From Tenacibaculum pacificus (GTDB lineage Bacteria; Bacteroidota; Bacteroidia; Flavobacteriales; Flavobacteriaceae): a stretch of DNA of 64,000 nucleotides. The translations under genes and the position numbers were made by a program. The notes below the pieces were generated by a model. That model ran no database searches, was not told where the DNA came from, and worked only from the letters and a program-made list of their open reading frames with translations. Below are positions 4,800 through 55,204 of this stretch, one piece after another. The stretch lies in contig NZ_CP115917.1 of NCBI RefSeq assembly GCF_027941775.1, positions 343,001 through 407,000 on the forward strand, written 5' to 3'. The number at the start of each line of letters is the position of its first letter. Position 1 is the stretch's first letter.

Positions 4800-5387
4800 A
4801 TGTTTACAGGAATCATTGAAACTCTTGGAATCGTAAAAAATATAACCAAGGATAAAGAAAATTTACATATTACTATTTTAAGTGATATTACTAAAGAATT
4901 AAAAATTGATCAAAGTGTGGCGCACAATGGTGTTTGTTTAACTGTTGTTGATATAAAAGATGAGGAATATACCGTTACCGCAATTAAAGAAACACTTGAT
5001 AAAACCACTACTGGAGCTTTAGAAGTAGGAAGTCAGGTAAATCTTGAAAGAGCGATGAAATTAGGCGCTCGTTTAGATGGTCATATTGTGCAAGGACATG
5101 TTGACAGAACAGGTGTTTGTAAGGCGATAAAAGAGGAGGGAGGAAGCACTGTTTTTACTTTTTCTTATGATTTTGATGGTGAAAATATTACTATTGAAAA
5201 AGGATCGATTACTATAAATGGCGTAAGTTTAACGGTTGTAAATTCAAAGAAAGATGAATTTAGTGTTGCTATAATTCCATATACATTGGCGCATACGAAT
5301 TTTAAAGACTTTAAAATAGGTAGTAAAATTAATTTAGAATTTGATGTTATTGGTAAATATGTAGCCCGATTAACACAGTTGAAATAA
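4800..5387 (+). CDS. ribE: Riboflavin synthase alpha chain
   Basis: Dismutates two 6,7-dimethyl-8-ribityllumazine molecules to riboflavin. At 195 aa it has the usual length, starting with MFTGIIETLG, the diagnostic N-terminus. It consists of two similar lumazine-binding repeats of about 95 aa; the internal repeat is seen as NGVCLTVV near residue 43 and NGVSLTVV near residue 139, and as MKLGARLDGHIVQGHVD between them. Followed by a hairpin terminator, so it seems monocistronic. Confidence 0.97.
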   Translation: MFTGIIETLGIVKNITKDKENLHITILSDITKELKIDQSVAHNGVCLTVVDIKDEEYTVTAIKETLDKTTTGALEVGSQVNLERAMKLGARLDGHIVQGHVDRTGVCKAIKEEGGSTVFTFSYDFDGENITIEKGSITINGVSLTVVNSKKDEFSVAIIPYTLAHTNFKDFKIGSKINLEFDVIGKYVARLTQLK

Positions 5388-5423
5388 ATAAAATCGTTTT
5401 GAATAGATAGTTATATCGATATA

Positions 5424-5462
5424 AAAATCTGATTATGAGTAATTCGTAGTCAGATTTTTTTT
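5424..5462 (+). terminator. Terminator after ribE
   Basis: Inverted repeat AAATCTGATTATGA / TCGTAGTCAGATTT with two G-T or mismatch positions, followed by eight T. Lies 37 bp after the ribE stop. Confidence 0.8.
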
Positions 5463-5539
5463 ATCAAAATTTTTAGTAAAAATCATTATCTAACTACAAA
5501 AATTTGAGACAAAATACAATAAACTTGTTTTTAAAATAC

Positions 5540-5557
5540 AACTGTTAGCTACCAGTT
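5540..5557. promoter_or_regulatory. Candidate GntR-type operator upstream of the galactose operon
   Basis: Palindrome AACTGTTAG / CTACCAGTT, 8 of 9 base pairs matched. Its core (5541-5556) has half-sites ACTGTTAG and ACTGGTAG, closely like the palindrome at 17333-17348 (half-sites ACTGGTAC and ACTAGTAC) upstream of the GntR regulator gene. It lies about 90 bp before the SDR start. Binding by that regulator is inferred from the shared sequence and the AraR-like domain layout. Confidence 0.55.
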
Positions 5558-5615
5558 TATTTGTTTAATGTTACTATTTTCAAGTAGATTATTTAATTCA
5601 GAAACCTAAATAAAT

Positions 5616-5623
5616 TACATTTG
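5616..5623 (+). promoter_or_regulatory. -7 promoter element of the galactose operon
   Basis: TACATTTG, an exact TAnnTTTG match 25 bp before the SDR start. A proper TTG -33 element is not evident, which would fit a regulated promoter. Confidence 0.55.
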
Positions 5624-5648
5624 AATAATAGTCATTTGAAAAGAGAGT

Positions 5649-6428
5649 ATGGGAAATAGATTAGACAATAAAATTGCTATTGTTACAGGTAGCGCAAGAG
5701 GGATAGGAAAAGCGATTACAAAATTATTTATGCAAGAAGGTGCTATTGTTATAGCAACAGATAAAGATGTAGCAGAATTAGAAAAAACAGCAAAAGAATT
5801 TTCTTTAATAAAAAACGGTAGAATATTAACCTACGAAGTAGATATTACAAATAAAACTCATATTGAATCGGTAGTTAAAAAAACAATTGAACAGTTTAAT
5901 CGTATTGATATTTTAATAAACAATGCAGGTAAAAATGTTTTTGAAGATCCAATGAATATTACGAGTGAACAATGGGAACTTTGTTATAACTTAAATTTAA
6001 AAGGAAGTTGGAATTGTTCACAAACAGTATTACCTTTTTTTATTAAACAACAATATGGTAATGTAGTAAATATCGCTTCGGTACACGGGCATAAAATTAT
6101 AAAAGATTGTTTTCCTTATCCAGTATTTAAACACGGACTTATCGGTTTAACAAATTCTTTAGCAATTCAATATGCTTCACAAAATATTCGTTTTAATTCA
6201 ATTTCTCCAGGGTTAATATTAACGCCTGCGATTGAAGATAGTTTTAATGCATCGTCAAATCCTGAAGCTGAAAAAAAAGCACAAGAAGATATTTTACCTT
6301 GTAAAAGAATTGGTACTCCAGAAGAAGTAGCAAATACAGCATTGTTTTTAGCTAGTGATGAAGCTCGTTTTATTAATGCTACTGATATTTTAATAGATGG
6401 TGGACGTTCTAAAATTTATCATGATTAA
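5649..6428 (+). CDS. SDR-family NAD(P) dehydrogenase, probable D-galactose 1-dehydrogenase
   Basis: Classical short-chain dehydrogenase, 259 aa. The cofactor motif GSARGIGKA (near residue 14), NNAG (near residue 91), a catalytic Ser in NIASVHG and YPVFK (YxxxK) are all present. By family alone the substrate is unknown. It is the first gene of a unit followed by a lactonase, a KDGal kinase, a KDPGal aldolase and a galactonate dehydratase, so oxidation of D-galactose to the lactone is the role that completes the route; L-fucose or D-arabinose oxidation is the main alternative. Codon use is like its neighbours. Confidence 0.8.
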   Translation: MGNRLDNKIAIVTGSARGIGKAITKLFMQEGAIVIATDKDVAELEKTAKEFSLIKNGRILTYEVDITNKTHIESVVKKTIEQFNRIDILINNAGKNVFEDPMNITSEQWELCYNLNLKGSWNCSQTVLPFFIKQQYGNVVNIASVHGHKIIKDCFPYPVFKHGLIGLTNSLAIQYASQNIRFNSISPGLILTPAIEDSFNASSNPEAEKKAQEDILPCKRIGTPEEVANTALFLASDEARFINATDILIDGGRSKIYHD

Positions 6429-6444
6429 TTAAAGCTTCTAAAAA

Positions 6445-7308
6445 ATGATACATAATATTAGTGTGGTTTCTCATTCGCCACAAAATACTTTAGGAGAAAC
6501 ACCTATTTATTGCGATTATCTTCAAAAAGTTATTTGGGTAGATATTTTAGAAAATAGTATTTATACATTAGATATTGCAACATTAAAAATCAATAAAATA
6601 AAACTTCCTTTTTTATGTAGTGCGGCATTGCCAACTACTAAAAAAGGAATTTTGCTTTTAGTTACTGAAAATGGAGTTTTATCTTTTGATTTATTAAAAG
6701 AAACAGTTATTAAAAAATGGATTGATTTTCCTGAAAAAGATACCCGTCCAAATGAAGCGCAAATTTCTCTAAATGGTGATTTGTTTTTTGGAACAATGGA
6801 TTATGACGCAAAATCAAATAAAGGTTCTTGGTATCGTTTTTCATCAAAAGACATCAAACTAACATTATTAGAAAGCAACGTTAGTATTCCTAATACATTA
6901 GCTTTTTTTGATGATGAGGTTATTTTTGGAGATACCGCTACTAATCAGTTTTTTATAGATAAAGTTAATGCACTTCATTGGAATGATAAAAAAAGCTGTA
7001 CTCCTGAAATTGAAGCAGGAGGTATGGATGGTTCTTATTTTTCAGGTGATAATTATTTAATAAATGCACGTTGGGGATTATCAAAAACGACTGTTTTTGA
7101 TGTTCAAAAGAATATGAATATTCATGTTGAATTTGAATTACCAGTAAAGCAACCTACAAGCTGTGTTATTTATCCATCAGAAAATGGAAATAAAATACTT
7201 TTTACTTCTGCAAAAGTAGGGTTAGAAAATCCATCTGAAAATGACGGTAAAATTAGTATAGCAGATACTACTTATAAAACAAGAACTATAAACAGATTTA
7301 AACTTTAA
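6445..7308 (+). CDS. SMP-30/gluconolactonase family lactonase, probable galactonolactonase
   Basis: Hydrolyses the sugar lactone made by the preceding dehydrogenase. A 287-aa six-bladed propeller of the SMP-30/RGN family. Expected metal ligands are visible: Glu in LGETP near residue 18, Asn in PNEA near residue 103, Asn in IPNTL near residue 149 and Asp in GGMDGS near residue 195. It starts 16 bp after the SDR gene and its stop shares one base with the next start (TAATG), implying translational coupling. Specificity for galactonolactone is inferred from context. Confidence 0.85.
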   Translation: MIHNISVVSHSPQNTLGETPIYCDYLQKVIWVDILENSIYTLDIATLKINKIKLPFLCSAALPTTKKGILLLVTENGVLSFDLLKETVIKKWIDFPEKDTRPNEAQISLNGDLFFGTMDYDAKSNKGSWYRFSSKDIKLTLLESNVSIPNTLAFFDDEVIFGDTATNQFFIDKVNALHWNDKKSCTPEIEAGGMDGSYFSGDNYLINARWGLSKTTVFDVQKNMNIHVEFELPVKQPTSCVIYPSENGNKILFTSAKVGLENPSENDGKISIADTTYKTRTINRFKL

Positions 7309-8225
7309 TGAATACATATATAGCGATAGATTGGGGGTCAACAAATTTACGTGGATACTTCATTGAAAATAATACGGTAACAAATACATATTCATCAGAA
7401 AAAGGTGTGAAAAATATTACTGATAAATTAGAATATACCACTATTTTATCAACAATTATTAAAACTTTTTCTGCTTCTGAAAATATGCCAATATTACTAA
7501 GTGGTATGGTTGGAGGAGCTGCTGGTTGGATTGATACTACTTATGTTAATTGTCCTTTTAGTATTAATAATACATCAAAAAATATTATTAATATAGAGCA
7601 GGATGTTATCAATAATCCTATTTATATGTATCCAGGGCTTTGTATTAAAAATAAAGAAGAGGATACCTACGGAGTAATGAGAGGTGAAGAAATTCAGCTA
7701 ATCGGTGCTTTAAAAAAGGAAGCATACGACCTTCTAATTTTACCAGGAACGCATAGTAAATGGGTTCATGTTGAAAATAATGATTCGACATCAATTATTG
7801 ATTCATTTTCAACAGTAATGACAGGTGAATTATATGAAGTTTTATTACATAATTCTCTTTTAGGAATGGTTGAGGATAAGAAAATATTCTCTTTAAAAGG
7901 ATTTCATAAAGGACTTCAAACAGCAAAAGATTCTGATGCGATTATAGCGTCATTATTTTCTACCAGAGCAAAGCTATTGTTAGGTGGTATTGACAAAACA
8001 GAAGTTCCTGCATATCTTTCAGGGATGCTTATCGGAAATGAAGTAAAAAGTCAATTAGCTCAAATTACAGCTGATAAAAAAATAGGTGTAGTTGCTAATA
8101 AACATCTTAGTGAGTTATATCAACTAGCTTTTCAATCATTTAATTTAAACAACGTTAATTTCTTGGACGTTCAAGAAGTTACTATTCAGGGATATAATAC
8201 TATAGCGCATGATTTCATTAGATAA
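7308..8225 (+). CDS. dgoK: 2-dehydro-3-deoxygalactonokinase
   Basis: Phosphorylates 2-keto-3-deoxygalactonate (KDGal) with ATP to KDPGal. 305 aa, close to the usual 290-300. N-terminal IAIDWGSTNLRGYF is the phosphate-1 motif of DgoK-type kinases (ASKHA-like fold); LPGTHSKWVH near residue 145 and DSFSTVMTGELYE shortly after are characteristic of the family. Its ATG overlaps the lactonase stop by one base, and its 3' end overlaps the aldolase gene by 17 nt, so the operon is tightly coupled. Confidence 0.93.
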   Translation: MNTYIAIDWGSTNLRGYFIENNTVTNTYSSEKGVKNITDKLEYTTILSTIIKTFSASENMPILLSGMVGGAAGWIDTTYVNCPFSINNTSKNIINIEQDVINNPIYMYPGLCIKNKEEDTYGVMRGEEIQLIGALKKEAYDLLILPGTHSKWVHVENNDSTSIIDSFSTVMTGELYEVLLHNSLLGMVEDKKIFSLKGFHKGLQTAKDSDAIIASLFSTRAKLLLGGIDKTEVPAYLSGMLIGNEVKSQLAQITADKKIGVVANKHLSELYQLAFQSFNLNNVNFLDVQEVTIQGYNTIAHDFIR

Positions 8226-8847
8226 AATTGAATTGCCATTAATTGCCATTTTAAGAGGGATTAAACCAACAGAAGTACTTGAACATGCGAAAGCATTATT
8301 TGAGGTAGGTTTCCGATTTATTGAAATTCCTACAAATTCGCCTGATTGGGATAAAAGTGTTGATATTTTACAAAAACATTTTGATAATACTGCTTTTATT
8401 GGTGCAGGTACTGTTATTACAGAAGCACATCTTGATACCTTAATTTCGTTAGATGCTAAATTAATGGTAAGCCCAAATGTTAACCTTAATATTTTAGCTA
8501 AAAGTGTTGCTAATAATATGATTAGTTGCGTAGGCGCATTATCACCTACAGAAATAATTGCAGCAAGCCAAGGAGGTGCTAATGTTGTAAAGGTTTTTCC
8601 TGCAGGTACTATGGGACTTAATTATTGTAAAGCAGTAATGGCAATTGCTCCTAAAAATCAACAATATTATTGCGTCGGAGGAATAAATCCAGCAAATTTA
8701 AGCGATTATCTAAAGTTAGGATTTCACGGTGCAGGATTAGGTGGTGATTTATACAAACCGAATCAATCAGTTGAAACAACTAAAGATAAAGCAACACAAT
8801 TTTATAACGCATATATAAATTACAAAAATGAAAATAACAGGAATTAG
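8209..8847 (+). CDS. dgoA: 2-dehydro-3-deoxy-6-phosphogalactonate aldolase
   Basis: Cleaves KDPGal to pyruvate and glyceraldehyde-3-phosphate. Class I aldolase of the KDPG/KHG family, 212 aa. Visible are the general-base Glu in FIEIPTNS, the phosphate loop in GAGTVI, and the Schiff-base lysine in VVKVFPAG near residue 127. The start at 8209 lies inside the end of dgoK (17-nt overlap) and its own 3' end overlaps dgoD by 20 nt. It is distinct from the eda copy at 10092, which belongs to the glucose branch. Confidence 0.92.
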
Positions 8848-9982
8848 ATTATATAAAGTTGCGCCACGCTGGCAGTTTTTAGCCATTGATACTGATGAAG
8901 GTATTACAGGTTGGGGAGAACCAGTTTTAGAAGGTCGTGTTGATACTGTTCAAGCAGCAGTTAAAGAATTGAGCCCTTATTTAATAGGAAAAGACCCAAG
9001 TAGAATAAATGATATTTGGAATGTACTTTATAGAGGTGGATTTTACAGAGGTGGAGGTATTTTAATGTCTGCTATTTCAGGAATTGACCAAGCTTTATGG
9101 GATATTAAAGGTAAAGTGATGAATCAGCCAGTATATGAATTACTAGGTGGTTTGTGTCGTGATAAAATGAAATTATATAACTGGGTTGGAGGAGATAATC
9201 CTTCGGATGAGGTTGCTGACATCAAATTATATAAAGAAAAAGGATTTGACACTTTTAAGTTAAACGGAACAGGGAAATTGAAAATGATTGATTCTAACAG
9301 AGCAATTGATCAAGTAATTTCAAGAATAGATACTATTCGTGCTGCTTTTGGAAATACCATCGATTTTGGATTAGATTTTCACGGAAGAGTAAGTACACCA
9401 ATGGCAAGTGTATTAATTAAAGAGTTAGAACCGTATCGTCCTTTATTTATTGAAGAACCTGTTTTACATGATTATTCTGAAAATTATGCACGTTTAGCGG
9501 CTAAAACAAGCATTCCTATTGCAGCAGGTGAAAGAATGTTTAGCAGATATGATTTTAAAAGAATTTTTGAACAAGGTGGATTAGGTATTGTTCAGCCAGA
9601 TTTATCACATGCAGGAGGTATTACAGAATGTTTAAAAATAGCATCAATGGCAGAAGCTTATGATGTTGCTTTAGCACCTCATTGTCCGTTAGGACCTGTT
9701 GCTTTAGCGGCTTGTTTGGCTATTGATTTTGTATCGCCAAATGCTATTATTCAAGAGCAATCAATGGGGATTCATTATAACAAAGGAACTGCTGAACTTA
9801 TTGATTATGTGAAAAATAAAGAAGATTTTGAATATATTGATGGATACATCAAGCCTTTACCAAAACCAGGTTTAGGTGTTGTTATAGATGAAGAAGCTGT
9901 TATTGAAGCTGATAAGAAATTTGATGTTGATTGGAAAAATCCTATTTGGAGACATGAGGATGGTTCTTTTGCTGAGTGGTAA
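8828..9982 (+). CDS. dgoD: D-galactonate dehydratase
   Basis: Dehydrates D-galactonate to KDGal. 384 aa, mandelate racemase/enolase superfamily. The sequence LDFHGRV near residue 181 carries the Asp metal ligand and the neighbouring His base diagnostic of the galactonate dehydratase group; the other metal ligands are in FIEEP and AGERMF, and the second His is in APHCPLGP. Starts inside dgoA (20-nt overlap), last gene of the operon, followed by a terminator shared with eda. The DFH signature supports galactonate rather than gluconate or arabinonate as substrate. Confidence 0.94.
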
Positions 9983-10005
9983 AATTTTTTTTATCATAAA
10001 AAATA

Positions 10006-10052
10006 AAAAAACCGCTAACATTTATCTAAAAGATATTTGTTTGCGGTTTTTA
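10006..10052. terminator. Shared bidirectional terminator between dgoD and eda
   Basis: Stem AAAACCGCtAACA / TGTTTGCGGTTTT (one mismatch) with A-runs and T-runs on both sides. It can end the plus-strand galactose operon and the minus-strand Entner-Doudoroff operon. Confidence 0.8.
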
Positions 10053-10091
10053 AAATTTTGTCAAGGTGTTTTAATTATATTATAAAAAAAA

Positions 10092-10655
10092 TTACTTCAT
10101 CATCCAAGAACCTCCAACGCTTATAACATTTGATAAGCTTTGATAATCAGTAACAGTTTTTTCATTAACACCTCCTGTAGGACAAAATTTTACTTTTGGG
10201 AAAACATTACAATATGTTTTTAAAGCAGCTGTGCCACCAAATAAATTAGCTGGAAAAAATTTAAAAGTATCCCATCCTAATGCTAAACCTAACATAATTT
10301 CACTAGGTGAAGTTACTCCAGGAATAAAAGGAATATCACTTTCTTCTAAGTCGCTTGCCATTTCTTTAGAAATACCAGGGCTTACTATAAAGTCAACCTT
10401 TAAATCCTTTACTTTTTGTATTTGATTTTTGTGAATAACAGTTCCTACACCAACTTGTAAAACATCTCTATATTCTTTTTTAACTTTAGCAATAGCTTCA
10501 AATGATATTGGTGTTCTTAACGTTATTTCAATACATTTTATTCCTTTACTTAATAATTTTTCAACAGTTTGTGGTATTTCATCTAAACTATTAAAAGTAA
10601 CAACTGGTATTACAGGATTATTTTTAAGAATTTCTCTAATATTATTTTGAATCAT
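10092..10655 (-). CDS. eda: KDPG aldolase, C-terminally short
   Basis: Cleaves 2-keto-3-deoxy-6-phosphogluconate to pyruvate and glyceraldehyde-3-phosphate. The general-base Glu (CIEITLRT), phosphate loop (GVGTVI) and the Schiff-base Lys in FKFFPAN are all present. The protein is 187 aa and stops at VGGSWMMK, where the family usually continues for 20-30 residues of C-terminal helix. The bases after the stop are AT-rich spacer and terminator in all frames, so a simple frameshift does not explain it. Twelve bp after edd; last gene of the Entner-Doudoroff operon. Confidence 0.9.
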   Translation of the reverse strand: MIQNNIREILKNNPVIPVVTFNSLDEIPQTVEKLLSKGIKCIEITLRTPISFEAIAKVKKEYRDVLQVGVGTVIHKNQIQKVKDLKVDFIVSPGISKEMASDLEESDIPFIPGVTSPSEIMLGLALGWDTFKFFPANLFGGTAALKTYCNVFPKVKFCPTGGVNEKTVTDYQSLSNVISVGGSWMMK

Positions 10656-10667
10656 AATTTTCTTTTT

Positions 10668-12470
10668 TTAGAATAAAAAACTAGCGCCATCTTGACTAGA
10701 ACCTACTATATTCCTAATATTTCCGAATAATTCTCTTCCAGAACCTTGATTGTTTTCAATGGTTTTCTTAGCTGATTTTCTTGCTAATACAACGGTTTCA
10801 TTTAATACATTAAGTTGTCCTGTAACGGCATTTAAGCTTAGAATATCGCCTGTTTTTATTTTAGAAATAACACCACCATCTAAAGCTTCTGGCGATAAAT
10901 GTATTGCCGCAGGAACTTTTCCTGAAGCACCCGACATACGACCATCAGTAACTAAGGCAACTTTAAATCCTCTACGTTGTAAAATACTTAACGAAGGTGT
11001 TAGTTTGTGTAATTCAGGCATTCCGTTAGATTTAGGTCCTTGAAAGGGAAGTACTGCAATAAAATCTTTATCTAGTTCTCCTTTTTTAAAAGCATCCATT
11101 AAAGCTTCTTGTGTTAAAAAAACTACAGCAGGAGCTTCTATAATTAAATATTCATCTTTAACAGCTGAGGTTTTTATAACAGATTCTCCAATATTTCCTT
11201 TTAAAACTTTTAGCCCACCATCTTTAGAAAAAGGGGTTTCTACAGTTCTAATTACATTTTCGTTTAATGTTGTTTTAGAACCTTCAACCCAAATGATTTT
11301 ATCATTTTCTATTTTTGGTTCTTTTGTATATTTAGATAATCCTTTACCTAATATAGTATTTACATCTTCATGTAATAACCCGTTTTTTAATAAAGTATTT
11401 ACTATAAAACCAACACCTCCAGCAGCATGAAAATGATTTACATCAGCACTACCATTTGGATATACTCTTGCTAAAAGTGGTATAACTCCTGATAAATCAG
11501 AAAAATCTTGCCAATTAATTATAATACCAGCAGCTTTTGCCATGGCTATTAAATGAATTGTATGATTTGTAGAACCACCCGTGGCTAACAAACCAATAAT
11601 ACCATTAACTACTGTTTTTTCACTATATATCGAAGCTAGTGTATTATCAAAATCTTTTTCTTTACAGTTTTTACTGATGATTTTTACAGCCTCTTCATCA
11701 AGTAATTTTCTAAGTTGTGTATCAGGGTTTACAAAACTAGCCCCAGGTAATTGTAGTCCCATAATTTCCATGAGCATTTGATTACTGTTGGCTGTTCCGA
11801 AAAAAGTACAAGTTCCTGGAGAGTGATAAGAATCAGATTCTCCTTTTAATAATTCATCTCTATCGATTTTTCCTTCCGCAAAATTTTGACGAATTTGAGC
11901 CTTTTCATCATTACTAATTCCTGTTTCCATAGGACCACTAGGCATAAATATTGCAGGTAAATGTCCGAATTTGAGTGAACCAATTATTAATCCAGGGACT
12001 ATTTTATCACAAATACCAAGATTAATAACGCCATCAAACATATTGTGAGAAAGTGCTATTGCAGTAGATAATGCAATAATATCTCTACTAAATAAAGACA
12101 ATTCCATACCGTCTTGTCCTTGAGTTACCCCATCACACATTGCAGGAACTGCTCCAGCAACTTGTGCTGTTGCTGTATGCTTTTCAGCATATTCTCTAAT
12201 CATTTGAGGATAATTCTCATAGGGTTTGTGAGCAGATAACATATCGTTATATGCCGTAACAATTCCTAAATTAGGGGTTATATATTCAGATAATTCATTT
12301 TTAACACGTGTGCTACAAGCAGCAAAACCATGTGCTAAATTCCCGCAACTTAAAGTGTTTCTTGAAACTTCTTTAGAAAAAGCCTTTTGCATTTGTGTTA
12401 AATACAGTTGACGAGAATTTTTACTTCTTTCAATTATTCTATTGGTAACTTCTGAAATTATCTTATTCAT
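10668..12470 (-). CDS. edd: Phosphogluconate dehydratase
   Basis: Dehydrates 6-phosphogluconate to KDPG, the defining step of the Entner-Doudoroff pathway. 600 aa, normal length for the IlvD/Edd family. Iron-sulfur cluster cysteines are seen in MCDGVTQGQ and LGICDKIVPG, with a further Cys in PGTCTFFGTANSNQ, an Edd-type signature. The C-terminal VTDGRMSGASGKVPAAIH segment is characteristic. Encoded between pgl (12 bp upstream) and eda. Confidence 0.96.
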   Translation of the reverse strand: MNKIISEVTNRIIERSKNSRQLYLTQMQKAFSKEVSRNTLSCGNLAHGFAACSTRVKNELSEYITPNLGIVTAYNDMLSAHKPYENYPQMIREYAEKHTATAQVAGAVPAMCDGVTQGQDGMELSLFSRDIIALSTAIALSHNMFDGVINLGICDKIVPGLIIGSLKFGHLPAIFMPSGPMETGISNDEKAQIRQNFAEGKIDRDELLKGESDSYHSPGTCTFFGTANSNQMLMEIMGLQLPGASFVNPDTQLRKLLDEEAVKIISKNCKEKDFDNTLASIYSEKTVVNGIIGLLATGGSTNHTIHLIAMAKAAGIIINWQDFSDLSGVIPLLARVYPNGSADVNHFHAAGGVGFIVNTLLKNGLLHEDVNTILGKGLSKYTKEPKIENDKIIWVEGSKTTLNENVIRTVETPFSKDGGLKVLKGNIGESVIKTSAVKDEYLIIEAPAVVFLTQEALMDAFKKGELDKDFIAVLPFQGPKSNGMPELHKLTPSLSILQRRGFKVALVTDGRMSGASGKVPAAIHLSPEALDGGVISKIKTGDILSLNAVTGQLNVLNETVVLARKSAKKTIENNQGSGRELFGNIRNIVGSSQDGASFLF

Positions 12471-12481
12471 TGTTCTTGAAA

Positions 12482-13156
12482 TTAAATACTATAATACCAC
12501 TCTATATCTTTTTTGTTATCAACAAAACTAAATATCGGAAGTGTTCGTTTATCGTTATTATTTAATACCTCATATTTCTCTTTACCTGTTGTCATCAAGA
12601 GTACTTTATTTGCATTTAATAACATTTGTTTGCTACATGTTATTCTTTGTACAGGTGCTTTAGGTGCTTTGGTATTTATAATAGCTACTTTATTTTGTTG
12701 TAAATTTTCTTCTGATGCAGGGTCAGAAGGGAATAAAGAAGCAGTATGTCCATCTCCTCCCATACCTAATAGCACAACAGTAATATCTTTAAAAACTTCG
12801 TTATACTTTTGATTAATTAAAGTAATATTATCTTTTTCATCATTGATGTTTGCTATCATTCCATAAAAATTAGCTACGGATGCTTTAGCAATTAAAAGAT
12901 GTTCTTTTATCATTTTTTCATTACTATCATTTGAATCTGTAGTAACAAATCGTTCATCAACTAAACCAATATGTACTTTTTCCCAAGGGATGTCTAATTG
13001 TGCTAATTGAGTGTACATTTTTTTAGGAGTACCACCTCCTGAAACAAGTAAATAAGCTACATTATTTAGGGTAATAGCTTTTTTTAAGGAATTTGCTATT
13101 GTAGTAGCTAATTCCTTTTCAAGTTCTTCTGTTTTATCAAAATAAAATTTTTTCAT
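12482..13156 (-). CDS. pgl: 6-phosphogluconolactonase
   Basis: Hydrolyses 6-phosphogluconolactone made by Zwf. 224 aa from the ATG at 13156 (MKKFYFDKTEELEKEL); a longer frame to 13189 would overlap zwf and lacks family similarity. The DevB/NagB-like fold shows LLVSGGGTPKKMY near residue 36 for phosphate binding, GLVDERFV near residue 66 and LLGMGGDGHTASLFP near residue 130, the Pgl signature. It starts 4 bp after the zwf stop. Confidence 0.94.
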   Translation of the reverse strand: MKKFYFDKTEELEKELATTIANSLKKAITLNNVAYLLVSGGGTPKKMYTQLAQLDIPWEKVHIGLVDERFVTTDSNDSNEKMIKEHLLIAKASVANFYGMIANINDEKDNITLINQKYNEVFKDITVVLLGMGGDGHTASLFPSDPASEENLQQNKVAIINTKAPKAPVQRITCSKQMLLNANKVLLMTTGKEKYEVLNNNDKRTLPIFSFVDNKKDIEWYYSI

Positions 13157-13160
13157 AATT

Positions 13161-14624
13161 TTAACTATGTATCTCCCAAGTATCTCCATTAGACATTACT
13201 GAATCTCTAGGTCCTGTTGTTCCTGCTTCGTAAAGGTCTATTGGTTGTTTAATTTTTTTCCAATTATCAGTAATTGATTCAATCCAAGTCCAAGCTGCTC
13301 TTAATTCATCTTCTCGCATAAATAAGGTTTGATTTCCTCTTAAAACATCTATCAAAAGTCGTTCATAAGCTTCAGGTAGTCTTTCATTAAAAGAGTCTAA
13401 ATAATCTAATTTTAATGAAATAGGTTTATATCGATATCCACCAGGACCAGGAATTTTTGTCATCTGAACAATAGATATTCTTTCTTCTGGTTGCAAACGA
13501 ATAATAAGTTTATTATTAGGAACAGTAGTTTCAGGATTAAAAATATTATGTTTAACAGATTTAAAGTTAATTACTATTTCAGAATATCGTTGTTCTAATC
13601 TTTTTCCTGTTCTTAAATAAAAAGGAACTCCTTTCCATCGCCAATTATCTACATAGGCTTTTAAAGCGACAAAAGTTTCTGTATTAGAAGCATACTTATT
13701 AATATCTTCTAAATAGGAACTAACCTTTGTTTTATTTATTTTTCCTCTAGTATATTGCCCTCTAACAGTATCTGTTTTTACAGATTCAGCATTTAACATG
13801 CGTAATGATTGTAATACTTTTAGTTTTTCGTTACGCATTTGGTCGGCTTCTACAGAAATAGGTGGCTCCATGGCAACCAAACATAATAGTTGTAATAAAT
13901 GATTTTGAACCATATCTAAAAGAGCCCCACTTTTATCATAATAACCACCTCTAGTACCAACACCTAAGTTTTCAGCAACAGTAATTTGAACATTATCAAT
14001 ATGTTCACTATCCCAAGAACGTTCAAATAAATGATTAGAAAACCTTAATACCATAAGGTTTTGTACTGTTTCTTTTCCTAAATAATGATCAATTCTATAA
14101 ATTTGTTTTTCTGAAAAAGTTTTGGTTATTTGGGTGTTTATTTCTTCAAAAGAAGCTAAACTATTACCTAAAGGTTTTTCTAAAACAACTTTACTTGTAG
14201 TGTTTACTATAGATGATTCTCTTAACGTATCGCAAATTTCAACAAATACAGATGAAGGAGTCGAAAAATAAAAAACATCTTGATAATTGCTATGCTCTTG
14301 TAAAATATTTTTTAAAGGTTGATACGTCTTTATACTATGATTTTTTATAAGAATAACAGTGATTTTAGAAATAAAATCAGCTACAACTTCCGAATTAAAA
14401 TCAATTTTTTTATCAGCGACAGTAATTTGTTCTTTAATTTTTTCGAGAAGAGGTTCAATAGGCATTTCATCTCTAATAATCACAACAATATTAAAGTCTC
14501 CTCCAATTTGTTGCTCAGCAAATCGACAAAATAATGCTGGATAAATTTTGCGCATAGCTAAATCTCCATCACCACCAAAAATTACAAAATTAAACGCTTC
14601 TAACATTTTATCTTTTTTACTCAT
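13161..14624 (-). CDS. zwf: Glucose-6-phosphate 1-dehydrogenase
   Basis: Oxidises glucose-6-phosphate to the lactone with NAD(P). 487 aa, usual length. The Rossmann motif is FGGDGDLAMRK near residue 17, the active-site signature RIDHYLGKETV near residue 177. Between the SSS symporter (9 bp) and pgl (4 bp), so it feeds edd-eda directly; no gnd is present in this window, which fits Entner-Doudoroff rather than pentose phosphate use. The presence of GGDG where many homologues have GASG is a known variant, not a defect. Confidence 0.96.
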   Translation of the reverse strand: MSKKDKMLEAFNFVIFGGDGDLAMRKIYPALFCRFAEQQIGGDFNIVVIIRDEMPIEPLLEKIKEQITVADKKIDFNSEVVADFISKITVILIKNHSIKTYQPLKNILQEHSNYQDVFYFSTPSSVFVEICDTLRESSIVNTTSKVVLEKPLGNSLASFEEINTQITKTFSEKQIYRIDHYLGKETVQNLMVLRFSNHLFERSWDSEHIDNVQITVAENLGVGTRGGYYDKSGALLDMVQNHLLQLLCLVAMEPPISVEADQMRNEKLKVLQSLRMLNAESVKTDTVRGQYTRGKINKTKVSSYLEDINKYASNTETFVALKAYVDNWRWKGVPFYLRTGKRLEQRYSEIVINFKSVKHNIFNPETTVPNNKLIIRLQPEERISIVQMTKIPGPGGYRYKPISLKLDYLDSFNERLPEAYERLLIDVLRGNQTLFMREDELRAAWTWIESITDNWKKIKQPIDLYEAGTTGPRDSVMSNGDTWEIHS

Positions 14625-14633
14625 TACTTATTG

Positions 14634-16220
14634 TTAAATAAAATAAATATAAATAGATAATACTAAAACACATATAATAATACCTAAAGAGTTGGTAAAT
14701 TTCCAAGGACTAATAGAAACTTCTTTTGTATATACTTGTACATATGCTTCTTTACGAGGTTTTAACTTACCAATTAACAGCATTATTAGTACGTTTAAAA
14801 CAAAAAGAATAGCCATTACATGTAAAAAATGAGGATAATTATCAGCACCTATTACATATGGCTTAATTATAAATTGACTTATAATGTATAAAATAGACCC
14901 TGATATAATTCCAATTTTTGCAGCAATAGCAGGTACATATTTTGTTAAAAAACCAACTACAATAATTGTTAAAATAGGAATACTATAAATACCATTAGCT
15001 TCTTGTAAATAACCAAATAATCCATCTGAAGCATAAATTAATAAAGGAGCAATACACATAGCTATTAAAGCAAGTCCAATACCAAAGGTTTTTCCTGCTT
15101 TTATAACGTTAGTTTCATTAGTTCCTTTTTTGAAATATGACTGATAAATATCAATACTAAATAAGGTAACAGAACTGTTTAAAGCAGAGTTAAAAGAACT
15201 TAAAATAGCCCCAAATAATACTGCAGCAAAAAAACCAAGCCATACTTTAGGAAGTACTTTAGAAACTAACATAGGGTAAGCTTCATCAGGGTTTACTATT
15301 TGGTCACCAAACATATGATAAGCTATAATACCAGGTAATACTACAATTAACGGCCCTAATATTTTAATAAAAGAAGCTAAAAGTAATCCTTTTTGACCTT
15401 CTTTTAAGTTTTTAGCTCCTAATGCACGTTGAATAATAGCTTGATTTGTTCCCCAGTAAAAAAGTTGTACTAACATCATACCTGTAAAAATTGTTTCAAT
15501 TGGAATAGATGATTTTGATCCTCCAATAGATTTGAATTTTTCAGGATGTTCTGTCATTAAAACAGCAATTCCATCAAATACATTTCCATCACCTACTGCC
15601 ATTAAACCAAAAATAGGAATTAACATTCCACCTATAAGTAAACCAACTGCATTTATTGTATCTGAAATTGCAACAGCTTTTAAGCCACCAAAAATGGCAT
15701 AAATACCACCTATTATTCCTATAAGCCATACGGTTATCCATAAGGCTACGCTTTTAGATACTCCAAGTAATTCAGGAACTTCAAACATACTATTAATAGC
15801 TAATGCTCCAGAATATAGTACGATAGGTAATAAAACAATAGCATAACCACTTAAAAATAAAATAGAAGTGATTGCTTTTGTTGTTTTATCATATCGTTTT
15901 TCTAAAAACTGTGGGATTGTTGTAATTCCTCCTTTTAAATATTTAGGTAATAAAAAAACTGCTGTAAGTACCATTGCTATGGCAGCAAGTGTTTCCCAAG
16001 CCATTACTAAAATTCCATCTTTAAAAGCAGCACCATTTAATCCTATTATTTGTTCTGTAGAAAGATTTGTTAATAACAATGATCCAGCTATTACAACACC
16101 TGTTAAACTTCTTCCTCCAAGAAAATAATCATCTGATGTTTTTTCATTTGTTTTCCTGGATTTATAGTAGGATATAACCGCTACTAAAATGGTAAATGCT
16201 AAAAATGTAATTATCTGCAT
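14634..16220 (-). CDS. Sodium:solute symporter (SSS/SLC5), probable hexose transporter
   Basis: Inner-membrane Na+-coupled transporter, 528 aa, with about 13-14 hydrophobic segments and the SSS signature DYFLGGRSLTG near residue 31. The SGLT-like subgroup is suggested by the long internal WGTNQAIIQRALGAKNLKEGQKG segment region near residue 257 (shown only in part), typical of sugar-transporting members. It is encoded between the GntR regulator and zwf, so glucose and/or galactose are the best substrate guesses. The sugar enters unphosphorylated; no hexokinase is in the window. Confidence 0.88.
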   Translation of the reverse strand: MQIITFLAFTILVAVISYYKSRKTNEKTSDDYFLGGRSLTGVVIAGSLLLTNLSTEQIIGLNGAAFKDGILVMAWETLAAIAMVLTAVFLLPKYLKGGITTIPQFLEKRYDKTTKAITSILFLSGYAIVLLPIVLYSGALAINSMFEVPELLGVSKSVALWITVWLIGIIGGIYAIFGGLKAVAISDTINAVGLLIGGMLIPIFGLMAVGDGNVFDGIAVLMTEHPEKFKSIGGSKSSIPIETIFTGMMLVQLFYWGTNQAIIQRALGAKNLKEGQKGLLLASFIKILGPLIVVLPGIIAYHMFGDQIVNPDEAYPMLVSKVLPKVWLGFFAAVLFGAILSSFNSALNSSVTLFSIDIYQSYFKKGTNETNVIKAGKTFGIGLALIAMCIAPLLIYASDGLFGYLQEANGIYSIPILTIIVVGFLTKYVPAIAAKIGIISGSILYIISQFIIKPYVIGADNYPHFLHVMAILFVLNVLIMLLIGKLKPRKEAYVQVYTKEVSISPWKFTNSLGIIICVLVLSIYIYFI

Positions 16221-16297
16221 ATGATTTAAGTTAAAATATATTGTTAAGTTAGTTGATTATTATTTGGTTATTTTAAATATAAATTAGGTGTAAGTTA

Positions 16298-17296
16298 TTA
16301 AATAGAGTTTCTTAAAATTAAGCTATTTGGATTTTCAATTCTTACATTTTCTTGCTTTGTAACCATTTGTGCTAAACGTTTTCCCATAGCGTTAAAATCA
16401 GTTGATATTGTTGTTATTCCTCCTTGAACAACCTCTTTTAATAAAGTGTCGTTGTATGAAATAATTCCAATATCTTTTGCTAATTCAAAGTTTAATGTTT
16501 TTATCATTTTAATGATACGAATTAAATTTCTGTCATCAGGAATTAAATAAAGGTCTCCTTTTGATAAAATTCTATTCTCGAAACTAGCTACAACTTCATT
16601 ATTAAAATGATGTTTTTTACAAAATTTATTAAAGCCTTTTAACATTCCGATTGGTTGATTGTCATCTACAAAGAGTAATATTAATTTTTTGTATGGTTTT
16701 AAATATTTTAATCCTGTTTCAAGAGATTGGAAAATATCTTTTTCGAAATTTTGATAAATAGCGGAGTATTTAAAATGCTCTTTTCCTATTTGATCTAAGA
16801 TATATACGCTGTCTTTAGGTAAAACATCTAAAATTAAATGCGTGTTTTTTAAGTTAGCAGGCATAACAATATAGGTGTTATAAATTCCAATATTATCATG
16901 TATTAATTTACTAAAAACATCTTGATTAAAGTGATGGAAAAAAATATCTACTTTATCGCCTTCGTCTAAATTTGATAAAAAAGAATTATATAAATCTTCT
17001 TTAAAGGCATTTAATTCATCAAATAATAGGAATATTTTTTTAGAAGTACTTATATTCTTGCTTTTTACATAATAGCCTTTTCCAGGAACTGATTGTATAA
17101 TCCCTCTGGATTTAAGTAAGCCATATGCTTGCAGTACGGTATCTCTAGAAATATAAAACTGTAGTTTAACTCTATTAATTGAAGGTAATTTATCTCCTTG
17201 TTTGTAGTGGCCGTTAAGAATACCATCTTCGATAGATTTAACTATCTGCTTATATTTAGGCATTCCATTATTTTCTTCAAGAATCATGAAACTCAT
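16298..17296 (-). CDS. GntR-family regulator with LacI-type sensor domain
   Basis: 332-aa transcription factor. Residues about 12-75 form a GntR winged helix (KYKQIVKSIEDGIL, LPSINRVKLQFYISRDTVLQ read in parts, GIIQSVPGKGYYV). The rest, about 250 aa, resembles a periplasmic-binding/LacI ligand domain, with a C-terminal GGITTISTDFNAMGKR segment. This layout is that of AraR of Bacillus. It heads the operon with the symporter and Entner-Doudoroff genes (77 bp gap), and a palindrome at 17333 lies 37 bp upstream. It probably senses a sugar or sugar phosphate and represses its own operon and the galactose operon. Confidence 0.88.
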   Translation of the reverse strand: MSFMILEENNGMPKYKQIVKSIEDGILNGHYKQGDKLPSINRVKLQFYISRDTVLQAYGLLKSRGIIQSVPGKGYYVKSKNISTSKKIFLLFDELNAFKEDLYNSFLSNLDEGDKVDIFFHHFNQDVFSKLIHDNIGIYNTYIVMPANLKNTHLILDVLPKDSVYILDQIGKEHFKYSAIYQNFEKDIFQSLETGLKYLKPYKKLILLFVDDNQPIGMLKGFNKFCKKHHFNNEVVASFENRILSKGDLYLIPDDRNLIRIIKMIKTLNFELAKDIGIISYNDTLLKEVVQGGITTISTDFNAMGKRLAQMVTKQENVRIENPNSLILRNSI

Positions 17297-17332
17297 AAAC
17301 GCTAAGATATATCATTAAATTATAGTAAACCA

Positions 17333-17348
17333 ACTGGTACGTACTAGT
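17333..17348. promoter_or_regulatory. Candidate AraR-like operator upstream of the GntR regulator
   Basis: ACTGGTAC / GTACTAGT, a 16-bp palindrome with 7 of 8 pairs. The GTACGTAC centre equals the centre of known AraR operators of Bacillus subtilis, whose regulator has the same domain layout. Half-sites match those at 5541-5556. Confidence 0.6.
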
Positions 17349-17403
17349 ATGTTTTGTTTTTTCTTGAGAAAATAATCTTAAATATTTTTAATTTAAAAGC
17401 ATA

Positions 17404-17439
17404 AAAAAACCTCAAAATCAGTTAAGATTATGAGGTTTA
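17404..17439 (-). terminator. Terminator after the tRNA gene
   Basis: AAACCTCA / TGAGGTTT stem with a 16-nt loop; on the minus strand it follows the tRNA 3' end by 4 bp and ends in seven T. Confidence 0.75.
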
Positions 17440-17443
17440 AACG

Positions 17444-17517
17444 TGGTCCCACCAGGACTCGAACCTGGGACCACCTGATTATGAGTCAGGTGCTCTAACC
17501 AACTGAGCTATAAGACC
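17444..17517 (-). tRNA. tRNA with CAU anticodon (elongator Met or Ile2)
   Basis: A 74-nt cloverleaf folds from the minus strand: acceptor GGTCTTA / TGGGACC with two G-T pairs, D-stem GCTC/GAGC, anticodon arm CCTGA-CTCATAA-TCAGG, T-arm with GGTTCGAGTCC, discriminator A. The CCA end is not encoded. CAU reads Met, or Ile(AUA) after lysidine modification by TilS; identity cannot be settled by eye. Confidence 0.95.
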
Positions 17518-17570: not shown

Positions 17571-18544
17571 TTAAACTTTTCTGCTCATTAAATTTTCACC
17601 AAACAAACGAAGCCCATTTTTTTGAGCATCACTAATATTTAGGTGTATTAAACTTTTAAAAGACTTATTTGTGTAATATTCAATAAGTTCGTGTGTATAT
17701 TTAGGTATATTATTCTTCGAAAAAATATCAGAAACCGTCTTTATTTTTTCTGAAATATTTTCTTGTTTTTTATTGTAAAGAGTATTTAATTTTTCTTTAT
17801 CAGTATCATTTGCTACTTCAAAAGTTTTTAAATAGAGGTAGGTTTTTTTATTTTCGATAATATCTCCACCAACTTGTTTACCAAAAGTTTCAGGATTTCC
17901 ATAAGTATCTAAATAATCATCTTGTAATTGAAATGCGATACCTAAATTTAATCCGTAGTTATATAAATGTTGTGCTTGTTCATCACTAGCATCAGCAACA
18001 ATAGCGCCCATTTTTAGTGCTGCAGCTACTAAAACAGATGTTTTTAAGGTAATCATTTTAATATATTCAGCAATAGTAACATCATTTCTGGTTTCAAAAT
18101 CGACATCTAATTGTTGTCCGTCGCAAACTTCAAGCGCTGTTTTGCTAAATAATTTGGCTAGTTTTTGAAAAACAATCGGCTCGTAGTTTTCAAAATATTG
18201 ATACGCTAAAATTAACATTGCATCTCCAGAAAGTATTCCTCTGTTAATATCCCATTTTTCAGCTGAACGGTTTTATGTCCTCTTCTTAAAGGAGCATCGT
18301 CCATAATATCATCGTGTACTAGCGTGAAATTATGAAATACTTCAACAGCTAACGCCGCTGGCATTGCTTTTTTATAATCACCAGAAAAAATATCAGCAGC
18401 AATAAGTGTAAGTATTGGGCGAATTCTTTTTCCTCCTATTTGAAGAATGTAATCTATTGGTTCATAAAGGTTTTTAGGTTCTTTTATTGTTTTTTTAGAA
18501 GCTAAGTAAGATAAAAAGTCTGATTGATATTTTAGTATGTCCAA
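17571..18544 (-). pseudogene. Polyprenyl synthetase (GGPP/FPP-type), split by a +2 frameshift
   Basis: Trans-isoprenyl diphosphate synthase needed for quinone and other isoprenoid side chains. The N-terminal part (18212-18544) carries the first Asp-rich motif in VHDDIMDDAPLRRG, and the C-terminal part (17571-18218) the second in LQDDYLD. The frame breaks at 18261-18265: minus-strand GTTCAGCTGAAAAATGG where TVHEKW is expected. Removing GC (18262-18263) gives GTT CAT GAA AAA TGG GAT and then ...RGILSGDAMLIL in frame, a single 323-aa protein of normal length. All other motifs are intact, so a recent mutation or a sequence error is likely. Confidence 0.88.
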
Positions 18545-42674: not shown

Positions 42675-43707
42675 ATGTCAAATACCCCTAAAATTTTAAT
42701 AGTATATACAGGAGGAACTATTGGTATGGTTAAAGACTATAAAACAGGTGCTTTAAAAGCTTTTGATTTTAGTCAGATATCTAGTAAAATACCCGAATTA
42801 CAGCAATTAAATTGTGAAATTTCTACTATTTCATTTGATGAAGCTATAGATTCATCAAATATGAATGTGAACTATTATATTGATATCGCCCAAATTATTG
42901 CTGATAATTATGAGCAATTTGATGGTTTTGTAGTACTTACAGGTTCTGATACGATGTCATATACATCATCGGCAATTAGTTTTATGTTTGAAAATTTACA
43001 AAAACCAGTTATTTTTACAGGATCACAATTACCAATTGGTGATTTACGAACAGATGCGAAAGAAAATTTAATTACTTCGATACAAATTGCATCAACTAGC
43101 GAAAATCGAAAACCAGTAATACAAGAGGTCGGTTTATATTTTGAATATAAATTATACAGAGCCAACAGAACTACAAAAATAAATGCAGAACAATTTGAGG
43201 CTTTTGCTTCGATGAATTATCCGCCTTTAGTAGTAAGTGGTGTTCATTTAAATTTTAATCACCCAGTATTATTTAAACATTGAAAAAGAAGAAAATAAAC
43301 TTATCTTCAGAAAAAAATTAGACAATAATGTGGCTATTTTAAAGTTATTTCCAGGGATAACAGCATCGGTTGTTAATAGTTTTATAAATATACCCTATTT
43401 GAAAGGAATTATTTTAGAAACGTATGGTTCTGGAAATGCACCTACCGAAAAATGGTTTATAAATTTATTGGAAAAAGCAGTTGCTAAAGGTATCTATATT
43501 ATTAACGTAACTCAGTGTGCAGGGGGCAGTGTTATTTTAGGACATTATGAAACCAGTTCTGATTTAAAACGCATCGGAATTGTAGACGGAAAAGACATCA
43601 CAACAGAGACTGCTGTTGCTAAAATGATGTACTTGTTAGGCGAAAAGTTATCAAAAGAAGAGTTTAAACATTATTTTGAAACATCGTTAAGAGGTGAAAT
43701 TAATTAA
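42675..43707 (+). pseudogene. ansA: Type I L-asparaginase, split by a +1 frameshift
   Basis: Hydrolyses asparagine to aspartate and ammonia. The first part (42675-43283) has the active-site ILIVYTGGTIGMV and the second site VVLTGSDTMSY near residue 90; the second part (43330-43707) continues with VAILKLFPGI and VTQCAGGSVILGHY. The break is at 43280-43283: CATTGA. Removing one T restores ...FKH EKEENKLIFRKKLDNNVAILKLF in frame as one 343-aa enzyme of normal length. All motifs survive, so recent mutation or sequence error is likely. Confidence 0.88.
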
Positions 43708-52765: not shown

Positions 52766-55127
52766 TTAGTTCTCCTTTGGAGGTAAAATTTTAAAGTTAG
52801 TTTCTTTTAGTACTTTTTTATTCGCAATTCTTTTTTCAAAAGAAAGTAAAAGAGATGGTAATAATAATAAATTAGAAACCATTGCCAATAATAATGTAAC
52901 TGAAACTAACCCCCCTAAAGCTATTGTTCCTCCAAAACTAGAAATTGTAAATACTAGAAAGCCGAAAAATAATACAATAGATGTGTAAAACATACTAACA
53001 CCTGTTTCTTGAAGTGCTGCATAAACAGCTGGTTTAATTTTCCAATTATTGGCAAGTAATTCTTGACGATATTTAGCGAGAAAATGAATAGTGTCATCTA
53101 CAGAAATACCAAAAGCAATACTAAATACTAAAATTGTAGATGGTTTTATAGGGATACCAAAAAAGCCCATTAAACCTGCTGTAATTAACAATGGAAGCAT
53201 ATTTGGTATTAATGATATAAAAATCATTTTATAAGAACGAAACATCCATGCCATAAAAATTGAAATCAATAAAATAGCTAGGGATAATGAAATTACTAAA
53301 TTTTTAATTAAATAATTTGTTCCTTTTAAGAAAACTAAAGCTTTTCCTGTCATAGAAACAGTAAATTTCTTTTTAGGAAATTCTTTTTTTATAACAGCAT
53401 CTAAGCGTCCTTGAATGATATCCATTTTATCAGTACCAACATCCTTCATAAAAGTAGTGATACGTGTATAACGACCAGTGCTATCTACAAAATTATTCAA
53501 CATACCTGAATTGGTATCTGAATTTTTAGTGAAAGCGAAAATATGTACTTTTTCTTGACTAGTTGGTAATTGATAATATTTAGGGTTTCCTTTATAGTAT
53601 GCTTGTTTAGAGTATTTGACCAAATTTGTTATTGAAATAGGTTTCGATAATTCAGGAAAAGTTTCAATAGCTTCATTTAATTTTTCCATTTTCTTTAAAG
53701 TAGAAAGCTTCATAACACCTTTTTCTCTTTTTGTGTCAATCAAAATTTCTAAAGGCATAATTCCTCCAAATTCTGTTTCAAAGAACTTAATATCTTTATA
53801 AAACTGCGCTTCTTTAGGCATATCTTCAATTAAACTACCCGAAACACGAATTTGATAAACGCCAATCATACTTAATATAATTACGATAACAGTAGTAATA
53901 TAAATGGTAATTCGTTGTTCTTTTACCATACGTTCCATCCATTGAAACTACATTTCCCATCCACTTTTTTTCTAAGTGACTTAAATGTTTTTTTTCAGGA
54001 AGTGGCATAAAACTATAAACAATAGGAATTATTAATAGTGCCAAAATAAAAATACTAATAATATTTACTGACGCTAAAATTCCAAATTCTCTTAATAATT
54101 GACTTTTTACAAAAACAAAAGTTGCAAAACCTGATGCTGTTGTAATATTGGTCATTAAAGTTGCATTACCTATTTTTGAAATAACACGTTGTAATGATTT
54201 CGCTTGATTTCCGTGTTTTTTTATTTCTTGTTGATATTTATTGATAAGGAAAACCGCATTTGGTACTCCAATTACAATAATTAATGGTGGTATTAAAGCA
54301 GATAAAACAGTAATTTCATATCGAAATAAACCTATAAATCCGAAAGCCCAAATAACACCAATACCAACAACTAGTAGTGTGATAAAAGTAGCTCTAAATG
54401 AACGGAAAAAGAAAAAGAAAATAACAGCTGTAATACCTAAAGCACCTAATACGAACAGTTGCATTTCATCAATAATATTTTGAGAATTGATAGTTCGGAT
54501 ATAAGGCATTCCAGACATTCGTACATCTATCTGATGCTTTTTTTCAAATTTTTCAACAGTAGGAATTAATACTTTTGTAATAAAGTCTCTACGTGCAGGC
54601 GTATTTACAATTTCTTTATCTATATAAATAGCTGTTTGTAAAGTCCCTTTGTCGTTATATAATAAGTTGTCGTAAAATGGAAGGTTTTCAAATAACTGTT
54701 TCTTAATCTTATTTACTTCTTCATTTGTTGTAGGTGCTTTATCAAATAAAGGTTCTAGTACAAATTTTCTATTTTTTCTATCAGCTTTTAATTCTTTAAC
54801 ATCAGCAATAGAAACTGTAAAATCTACTTGTTTTGCACTATCTAATTCTTTTACAAGGGTATTCCATGCGTTAAATTTTATAGGCGTAAAAATACTAGCA
54901 TTTTTTACACCTAATATAACTAAGTTACCTTCTTCGCCAAAAATTTCCAAAAACTGATCGTATTGGATGTTCGCTTCATGATCTTTAGGAAGCAAGTTTG
55001 CTTCTGTATATGAGAAACGCATGTATTTGATTTGAGTAACTAAAAGCCCTGTAATAATAGCGATAGCGATTAAAACTAGGTATCTGTTTCTCAATATAAA
55101 TCCAGCAATTTTAGTCCAAAAAGTCAT
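52766..55127 (-). pseudogene. RND/MMPL-type exporter, split by a +1 frameshift
   Basis: A two-half RND-superfamily membrane protein without AcrB-type inserts, about 786 aa when joined, as in flavobacterial MMPL-like exporters. The N-terminal part starts at ATG 55127 (MTFWTKIAGFIL); the frame opens further upstream but lacks similarity. It ends out of frame near 53940, and the second part resumes at MERMVKEQRITIYITT (53938). Minus strand GTTTCAATGGATGGAACG; deleting one A (53942 or 53943) gives GNVVSWMERMVKEQ in frame. Each half has a helix, a periplasmic loop and five helices (e.g. SVDDTIHFLAKY in the second). Substrate unknown. Confidence 0.87.
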
Positions 55128-55141
55128 TTGAAATTTTTTTG

Positions 55142-55149
55142 CAAAGTTA
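55142..55149 (-). promoter_or_regulatory. -7 element of the RND/MMPL gene
   Basis: Minus strand TAACTTTG, TAnnTTTG match, 15 bp before the start at 55127. Confidence 0.4.
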
Positions 55150-55174
55150 TGATAAAAGTAACAATTAAACGAAA

Positions 55175-55204
55175 AAAAGAGTGTCATAACAGACACTCTT
55201 TATA
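55175..55204 (-). terminator. Terminator of pyrH-frr
   Basis: AAAGAGTGTC / GACACTCTTT perfect stem, 6-nt loop, followed by T-run on the minus strand. Confidence 0.85.

Follow-up and report, generated by a model that had tools for sequence, protein, structure and literature searches.

Here, we examined a window (the whole analysed stretch of 64,000 nucleotides, positions 343001-407000 of a 2.79-Mb single-contig genome that is 95.5% complete) in which two convergent operons, lying between ribE and a tRNA-Met gene, encode two oxidative routes of hexose breakdown: a DeLey-Doudoroff route, probably for galactose, and the Entner-Doudoroff (ED) route for glucose. The host genome has lost most of its phosphofructokinase gene, pfkA, and the site that holds the operons is near-empty in its two nearest relatives. 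We consider it likely that this acquired island, with its ED and DeLey-Doudoroff enzymes, now serves as the main hexose route, because Embden-Meyerhof (EMP) glycolysis appears to be broken. For the fuller proposal, that one acquired locus took over hexose breakdown, with a single regulator, two oxidative routes, the host phosphofructokinase lost and a glycolysis seen in no other sampled member of the genus, we put the chances at about even. The enzymes are known; their arrangement appears to be new, and the genome bears strong signs of a takeover from ordinary glycolysis in one species.

The evidence for a broken glycolysis comes from the genus as well as from the locus itself. Among the 97 genomes of our genus sample, which was drawn from a larger group, 88 matched the phosphofructokinase family PF00365. 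When the count is limited to genomes with a completeness of 90% or more and a contamination of 5% or less, 68 of 69 matched, the sole exception being the host; the other eight genomes without a match are 53-84% complete. Phosphofructokinase is thus lost in the carrier of the island and present in its kin. In the relatives, pfkA precedes gapA, with a gene of the sodium-solute symporter (SSS) family on its opposite side. We located the corresponding host locus through a neighbouring protein and found gapA, the SSS gene, a TPR gene, sdaA and others in synteny. Specifically, the host SSS-gapA stretch aligns to the loci of two relatives (L159 and L161) such that the first 15 nt and the last 74 nt of pfkA remain and approximately 0.9 kb is gone, with identical breakpoints against both. 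An assembly gap behind the missing gene was rejected because the locus is syntenic and both gene ends are present. The deletion inside pfkA is the reason why we regard EMP glycolysis as broken, and why the glucose side of the island points to a replacement of glycolysis. gapA, which both routes need, is retained. We found no match to 6-phosphogluconate dehydrogenase (Gnd, PF00393) in the host genome, to which that search was confined, and the island Zwf is the only G6PD_N match in the genome. As far as these searches go, glucose would be burnt by the ED pathway only, phosphofructokinase being gone. At the corresponding locus of the relative G290 (L160, 7403-9559), two gapA-like genes stand in a row after pfkA (gapA was named by eye, from the N-terminus and the likeness to neighbours), and the genes on the other side of pfkA differ from those in L159 and L161. 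The SSS gene beside the pfkA scar in the host (L166, 17746-19474) lies in two frames, and the 11 island genes are unsplit.

The site of the island was compared in the same way. From ribE to the polyprenyl synthase gene (ispB), the host has 12,189 bp, tRNA-Met included, versus 171 bp in G290 and 173 bp in G265, the two nearest relatives by ribE identity (87% and 85%), in which the two genes are convergent. A near-empty site in relatives, as expected of a tRNA-associated island, is therefore present in both. The left edge repeats 12 bp of the tRNA-Met anticodon arm, the only flanking repeat found at the island; a shared 12-mer with the tRNA appeared in 6 of 20000 shuffles of that edge. Having been noticed after both edges were compared, and sitting in a hairpin, the repeat is only suggestive as an attachment trace. 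Across the genus, ribE was matched in 86 of the 97 genomes, and after weak paralogue or fragment hits were left out, 86 ribE and 87 synthase places were used; both genes were placed in 81 genomes and lay on one contig in 62, host included. Of these 62 genomes, 27 have the two genes convergent and no more than 3 kb apart, and 20 no more than 1 kb. The ribE-tRNA-Met-ispB interval ranges from 171 bp to tens of kb across species, and because it is longer in other genomes as well, we regard it as a variable site that looks like an insertion hotspot. The contents of the island are likewise rare in the genus: Edd exceeds its cut-off in the host alone (1/97), some match to the Edd profile in 91 of the 97 genomes being weak in all others, as expected for related dihydroxy-acid dehydratases, and DgoK occurs in four genomes, three of them with weak homologues of 32-34% identity. 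Together, these observations argue that the stretch from ribE to tRNA-Met is a horizontally acquired sugar-oxidation island, which may have been transferred as a unit. The three weak DgoK homologues (G277:C11, G269:C1 and G258:C221) each lie less than 1 kb from a galactokinase-family gene.

Beside the island, the polyprenyl synthase gene (17571-18544) is read in two overlapping frames of 215 and 110 aa, against one frame of at least ~324 aa in the relatives; either an assembly error or a real break would produce this. Two further genes of the window are also split in two frames, one asparaginase-like (42675-43707) and one RND-like (52766-55196), both named by eye.

A preliminary description of this DNA, made from the letters alone, had proposed the two gene sets in convergent operons, and every gene it named was found in place, with family matches over the cut-offs. 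The plus-strand operon reads SDR-lactonase-dgoK-dgoA-dgoD (SDR, short-chain dehydrogenase/reductase) and faces gntR-SSS-zwf-pgl-edd-eda on the minus strand. All 11 frames are open (11/11 within 5649-17296), and the gaps inside both operons range from -29 to +77 bp. Eight of the 11 proteins exceed a curated NCBIfam cut-off, and the remaining three (lactonase, DgoK and regulator) exceed those of Pfam; in NCBIfam, the lactonase and DgoK had no match at E 1e-5 and the regulator none over a cut-off. DgoD carries D183, H185, E209, E235 and H285, which we take to be the catalytic set of the E. coli enzyme, and its closest solved structure, 3rr1, is itself a putative galactonate dehydratase. The two separate aldolases of the preliminary description are borne out, DgoA and Eda each passing the cut-off of its own family (NF006600 and TIGR01182, respectively). 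Its claim of complete routes from sugar to pyruvate plus glyceraldehyde-3-phosphate stands for the steps encoded, by family assignment, and falls short at the glucokinase needed before Zwf. The 110 bp that separate dgoD from eda contain a hairpin with T runs on either strand, which probably terminates transcription from both sides; it was read by eye and is not listed by the terminator-like scan, and both that scan and the promoter-like one performed no better than shuffles. The features are collected in Table 1.

Table 1 Features of the island and its edges (positions within the window).
Feature	Position	Strand	Remarks
Island	5388..17442		Between ribE and tRNA-Met; limits approximate
ribE	4800-5387	+	Left flank of island
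12-bp copy of tRNA-Met anticodon arm	5429..5440	+	Other copy 17475-17486
Palindrome ACTGTTAGCTACCAGT, presumed operator 1	5541..5556		92 bp before SDR start codon
TACATTTG, a TANNTTTG box	5616..5623	+	Bacteroidetes-type promoter box
SDR dehydrogenase	5649..6428	+	PRK07063, 355.6 bits (cut-off 306); S144, Y157, K161 motifs
SMP-30/gluconolactonase-family lactonase	6445..7308	+	PF08450; 2ghs, 1.9e-18
dgoK, 2-keto-3-deoxygalactonokinase	7308..8225	+	PF05035, 232.7 bits
dgoA, KDPGal aldolase	8209..8847	+	NF006600, 228.2 bits (cut-off 207)
dgoD, galactonate dehydratase	8828..9982	+	NF010624, 630.9 (cut-off 311); 3rr1, 1.2e-187
Hairpin, T runs on both strands	10005..10051		Probable two-way terminator; read by eye
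eda, KDPG aldolase	10092..10655	-	TIGR01182, 201.5 (cut-off 156)
edd, 6-phosphogluconate dehydratase	10668..12470	-	TIGR01196, 958.4 (cut-off 708)
pgl, 6-phosphogluconolactonase	12482..13189	-	TIGR01198, 166.3 (cut-off 124)
zwf, glucose-6-phosphate dehydrogenase	13161..14624	-	TIGR00871, 532.5 (cut-off 401)
SSS sodium/sugar symporter, SGLT-like	14634..16220	-	NF007790, 776.2 (cut-off 401); 2xq2, 5.9e-63
GntR regulator with periplasmic-binding-protein-like domain	16298..17296	-	PF00392 and Peripla_BP_3 PF13377, over cut-off
Palindrome ACTGGTACGTACTAGT, presumed operator 2	17333..17348		36 bp before gntR start codon
tRNA-Met (CAT)	17443..17517	-	Probable integration site

Two similar 16-bp imperfect palindromes precede the outermost genes of the island, and they coincide with the limits of the preliminary description, 5540 and 17348, which makes no mention of them. 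They are the only zero-mismatch matches to ACTGKTASSTACYAGT or ACTGNTANNTANNAGT in the window, which is partly so by construction, the patterns having been derived from these sites. The window has 73 palindromic 16-mers, counting those in which no fewer than 7 of 8 positions pair; after the two sites, the closest of them agrees with site 2 in 10 of 16 letters. With up to three mismatches, ACTGKTASSTACYAGT has seven window matches versus 2.5 expected, four of which are the two sites on both strands; within two mismatches, none occurs in 40 kb around the host pfkA locus, nor in the comparison loci L069, L098, L127, L149 and L150. Because of these palindromes, and because a GntR protein with a sugar-binding-like domain is encoded at the island end, one regulator probably controls both operons, and would switch them by binding the two similar operators. 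The box upstream of the SDR gene corresponds to TANNTTTG, presumably the Bacteroidetes promoter consensus.

In the route we propose, galactose would be converted by the SDR, lactonase, DgoD, DgoK and DgoA to pyruvate and glyceraldehyde-3-phosphate, and glucose, phosphorylated by a kinase encoded elsewhere, would reach the same products through Zwf, Pgl, Edd and Eda; with EMP glycolysis broken by the deletion inside pfkA, the island would then be the main hexose route. The best family of the SDR has no named substrate, and the lactonase matches the general SGL family only. The SDR is a probable aldose (galactose) 1-dehydrogenase, D-galactose being suggested by the galactonate enzymes downstream and by the two related five-gene loci L098 and L127, described below. 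Both adjoin genes for an aldose 1-epimerase, a sugar porter and a ROK protein, a neighbourhood that speaks for an aldose substrate. Furthermore, a kinase that acts on C6 cannot serve 6-deoxy sugars or pentoses, so that D-galactose, galactonate or D-talose remain. Transport may be shared, since the SGLT-like symporter would import glucose and perhaps galactose. It resembles the sodium/glucose cotransporter structure 2xq2 (E 5.9e-63; 148 of 431 aligned residues identical). If, as we assume, the sugar contacts of the Vibrio transporter are Q69, E88, S91, N260, K294 and Q428, with Y263 as the gate, then the symporter keeps four of six (Q, E, K and Q) together with the gate, S91 being replaced by A and N260 by Q; at position 294, 2xq2 itself reads A and 3dh4 reads K. 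In another genus of the family (G163; L039, 7381-9015), an SSS gene 66% identical to the island symporter adjoins dgoD, which hints at a link between symporters of this type and the use of galactonate or galactose.

The preliminary description had called the pairing of both pathways unusual and had proposed a comparison of gene order in related bacteria; both points are answered by the dgoD loci of other genomes. We searched about 10 kb around dgoD by tblastn with the window proteins (E 1e-8), several loci ending early at contig ends. Neither zwf nor pgl was found near dgoD in the best 80 of 191 proteobacterial loci or in the 13 loci of the host's own family, and matches to edd and eda were weak (edd, 25% in L078; eda, 28% in L147 and 22% in L036), such that 0 of 93 comparison loci show the pairing. 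Within the family, dgoD exceeds the cut-off in 14 of 199 genomes, host included. The 12 strong family sequences share 55-60% with the window sequence and make up a clade of their own (97/100), whereas the proteobacterial rows share 67-76%; the fourteenth family dgoD (G110, 37% to the window) was left out of the tree. The window dgoD groups with the proteobacterial L069, L098 and L127 (99/95) in a tree of 27 of the 80 proteobacterial rows, which were picked by similarity to the window and are thus not a fair sample; the bootstrap of this tree was still short of full convergence. As the window dgoD groups there with proteobacterial rows and not with the family clade, we rejected its vertical inheritance in this family. 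L098 (Enterobacteriaceae bacterium B14) and L127 (Providencia burhodogranariea) carry the five genes in the window's order, with identities to the window of 70-71% for DgoD, 56% for the SDR, 48% for DgoA and 32-36% for the lactonase and DgoK; L069 has none of the other window genes beside dgoD. Of the plasmid Edd sequences, the best among the matches listed (863 matching records) is from Agrobacterium, at 60.6%.

Several observations weigh against an acquired island as the main hexose route. The search that returned no PF00365 match in the host genome did not extend to other kinase families (PfkB-type), and no glucokinase lies among the island genes, no search of the genome having been made for glucokinase or Pgi. 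No integrase was seen among the island frames, judged by their family matches. The GC content of the island is like that of its flanks and does not mark it; foreign base composition was rejected, there being no GC difference. The two palindromes agree in only 12 of 16 letters. The donor of dgoD was not found, and it is not among L098 and L127 because of their distant lactonase and DgoK. The galactose arm looks like a gain and not a replacement because galactokinase is patchy in the genus and missing in the nearest relatives too: the family (TIGR00131) has no match in the host genome, matches in 58 of the 97 genus genomes (51 over cut-off) and is absent from G265, G290 and G216. For the same reason, galactokinase loss as part of the switch is unsupported. 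Finally, PMC10655711 states, in the part available, that every Flavobacterium genome it covers has ED genes, which contrasts with edd in 1 of 97 here only if the host genus is Flavobacterium.

These points bear on several rival explanations. The preliminary description saw the island as added capacity, which fits the galactose arm and gives way on the glucose side, where the deleted pfkA points to replacement. It is unlikely that the island does nothing but add capacity, with a PfkB-type kinase or a transaldolase/transketolase detour keeping an EMP-like flow and the pfkA loss being unrelated drift: kinases outside PF00365 fell beyond the search, and the pfkA locus still has gapA and the adjacent SSS gene, but all 68 other good-quality genus genomes have PF00365, and the genome that lost it is alone among the 97 in having an edd above the cut-off. 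We find it similarly improbable that the plus-strand operon is not a galactose route, its SDR and lactonase having some other sugar as substrate. The loose family matches of these two enzymes would allow it, yet DgoD and DgoA exceed galactonate cut-offs, DgoK belongs to the KDGal kinase family, the C6 kinase chemistry narrows the choice as above, and an aldose 1-epimerase and a sugar porter stand beside the genes in both loci of the same order. That the missing pfkA is an assembly artefact seems very improbable. A completeness of 95.5% and several genes in two frames (ispB, two more in the window and the SSS gene at the scar) speak for it; however, a loss of ~0.9 kb with diverged ends that match two relatives at the same points is no small indel, and PF00365 is matched nowhere else in the genome.

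A tentative but genuine possibility is that the operons came from different donors at different times, pfkA being lost first and the ED operon then rescuing glucose use, as in Campylobacter strains. It would fit an interval that collects inserts in the genus, the lack of any locus with both operons among the 93 compared, and a dgoD that points to Proteobacteria while the best listed plasmid Edd for the ED half reaches 60.6%, in Agrobacterium. In contrast, the paired palindromes at both ends, the convergent layout and the one regulator suggest a single regulatory unit now. Overall, we continue to favour an acquired island that serves as the main hexose route.

The Campylobacter glc locus (PMC5118423) comes closest as a precedent: in the available part of that paper, it is an ED island (glcP, pgi2, glk, pgl, zwf, edd and eda) in a minority of isolates, likewise beside RNA genes in a host without PfkA. 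It differs in that its hosts lack PfkA as a group, it serves glucose only, it holds glk and pgi, and it lies between 16S and 23S genes, whereas the relatives of our host keep pfkA, the host bears a scar and its ED genes are joined by a galactose operon. L098 and L127 share the five-gene order and the dgoD clade but adjoin a ROK protein, an MFS sugar porter and an aldose 1-epimerase, with no ED genes nearby. Mat bacteria (PMC5507952) have DeLey-Doudoroff loci in which a DgoL-type lactonase accompanies DgoK, DgoA and DgoD, and three alphaproteobacteria among them have the ED pathway without Pfk; the accessible text does not describe a joint galactose-glucose island or a Bacteroidetes member in which ED replaces Pfk. 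Freshwater and marine SAR11 (PMC6018831) are also related lineages that differ in EMP versus ED, although the contrast is opposite, the freshwater group having EMP, and no island with a second sugar route is described in the part available. The Zobellia carrageenan pathway dauA-dauD (PMC5698469) has a flavobacterial KDGal kinase and KDPGal aldolase step; as far as the excerpt goes, it starts from 3,6-anhydro-D-galactose with another dehydrogenase and a cycloisomerase, galactose being expected to follow the Leloir pathway. We found no report of the pairing, or of Flavobacteriia that lost pfkA and acquired an ED island, in the open literature, most subscription journals being outside the search.

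If the host genus is Flavobacterium, the statement on ED genes in PMC10655711, as it reads in the part available, calls for a second look. Here, relatives with a near-empty site and an intact pfkA stand against one genome with the island and a pfkA scar, a natural before-and-after case that opens to direct test the way in which a lineage exchanges its glycolysis for another type, and the benefit it draws from this.

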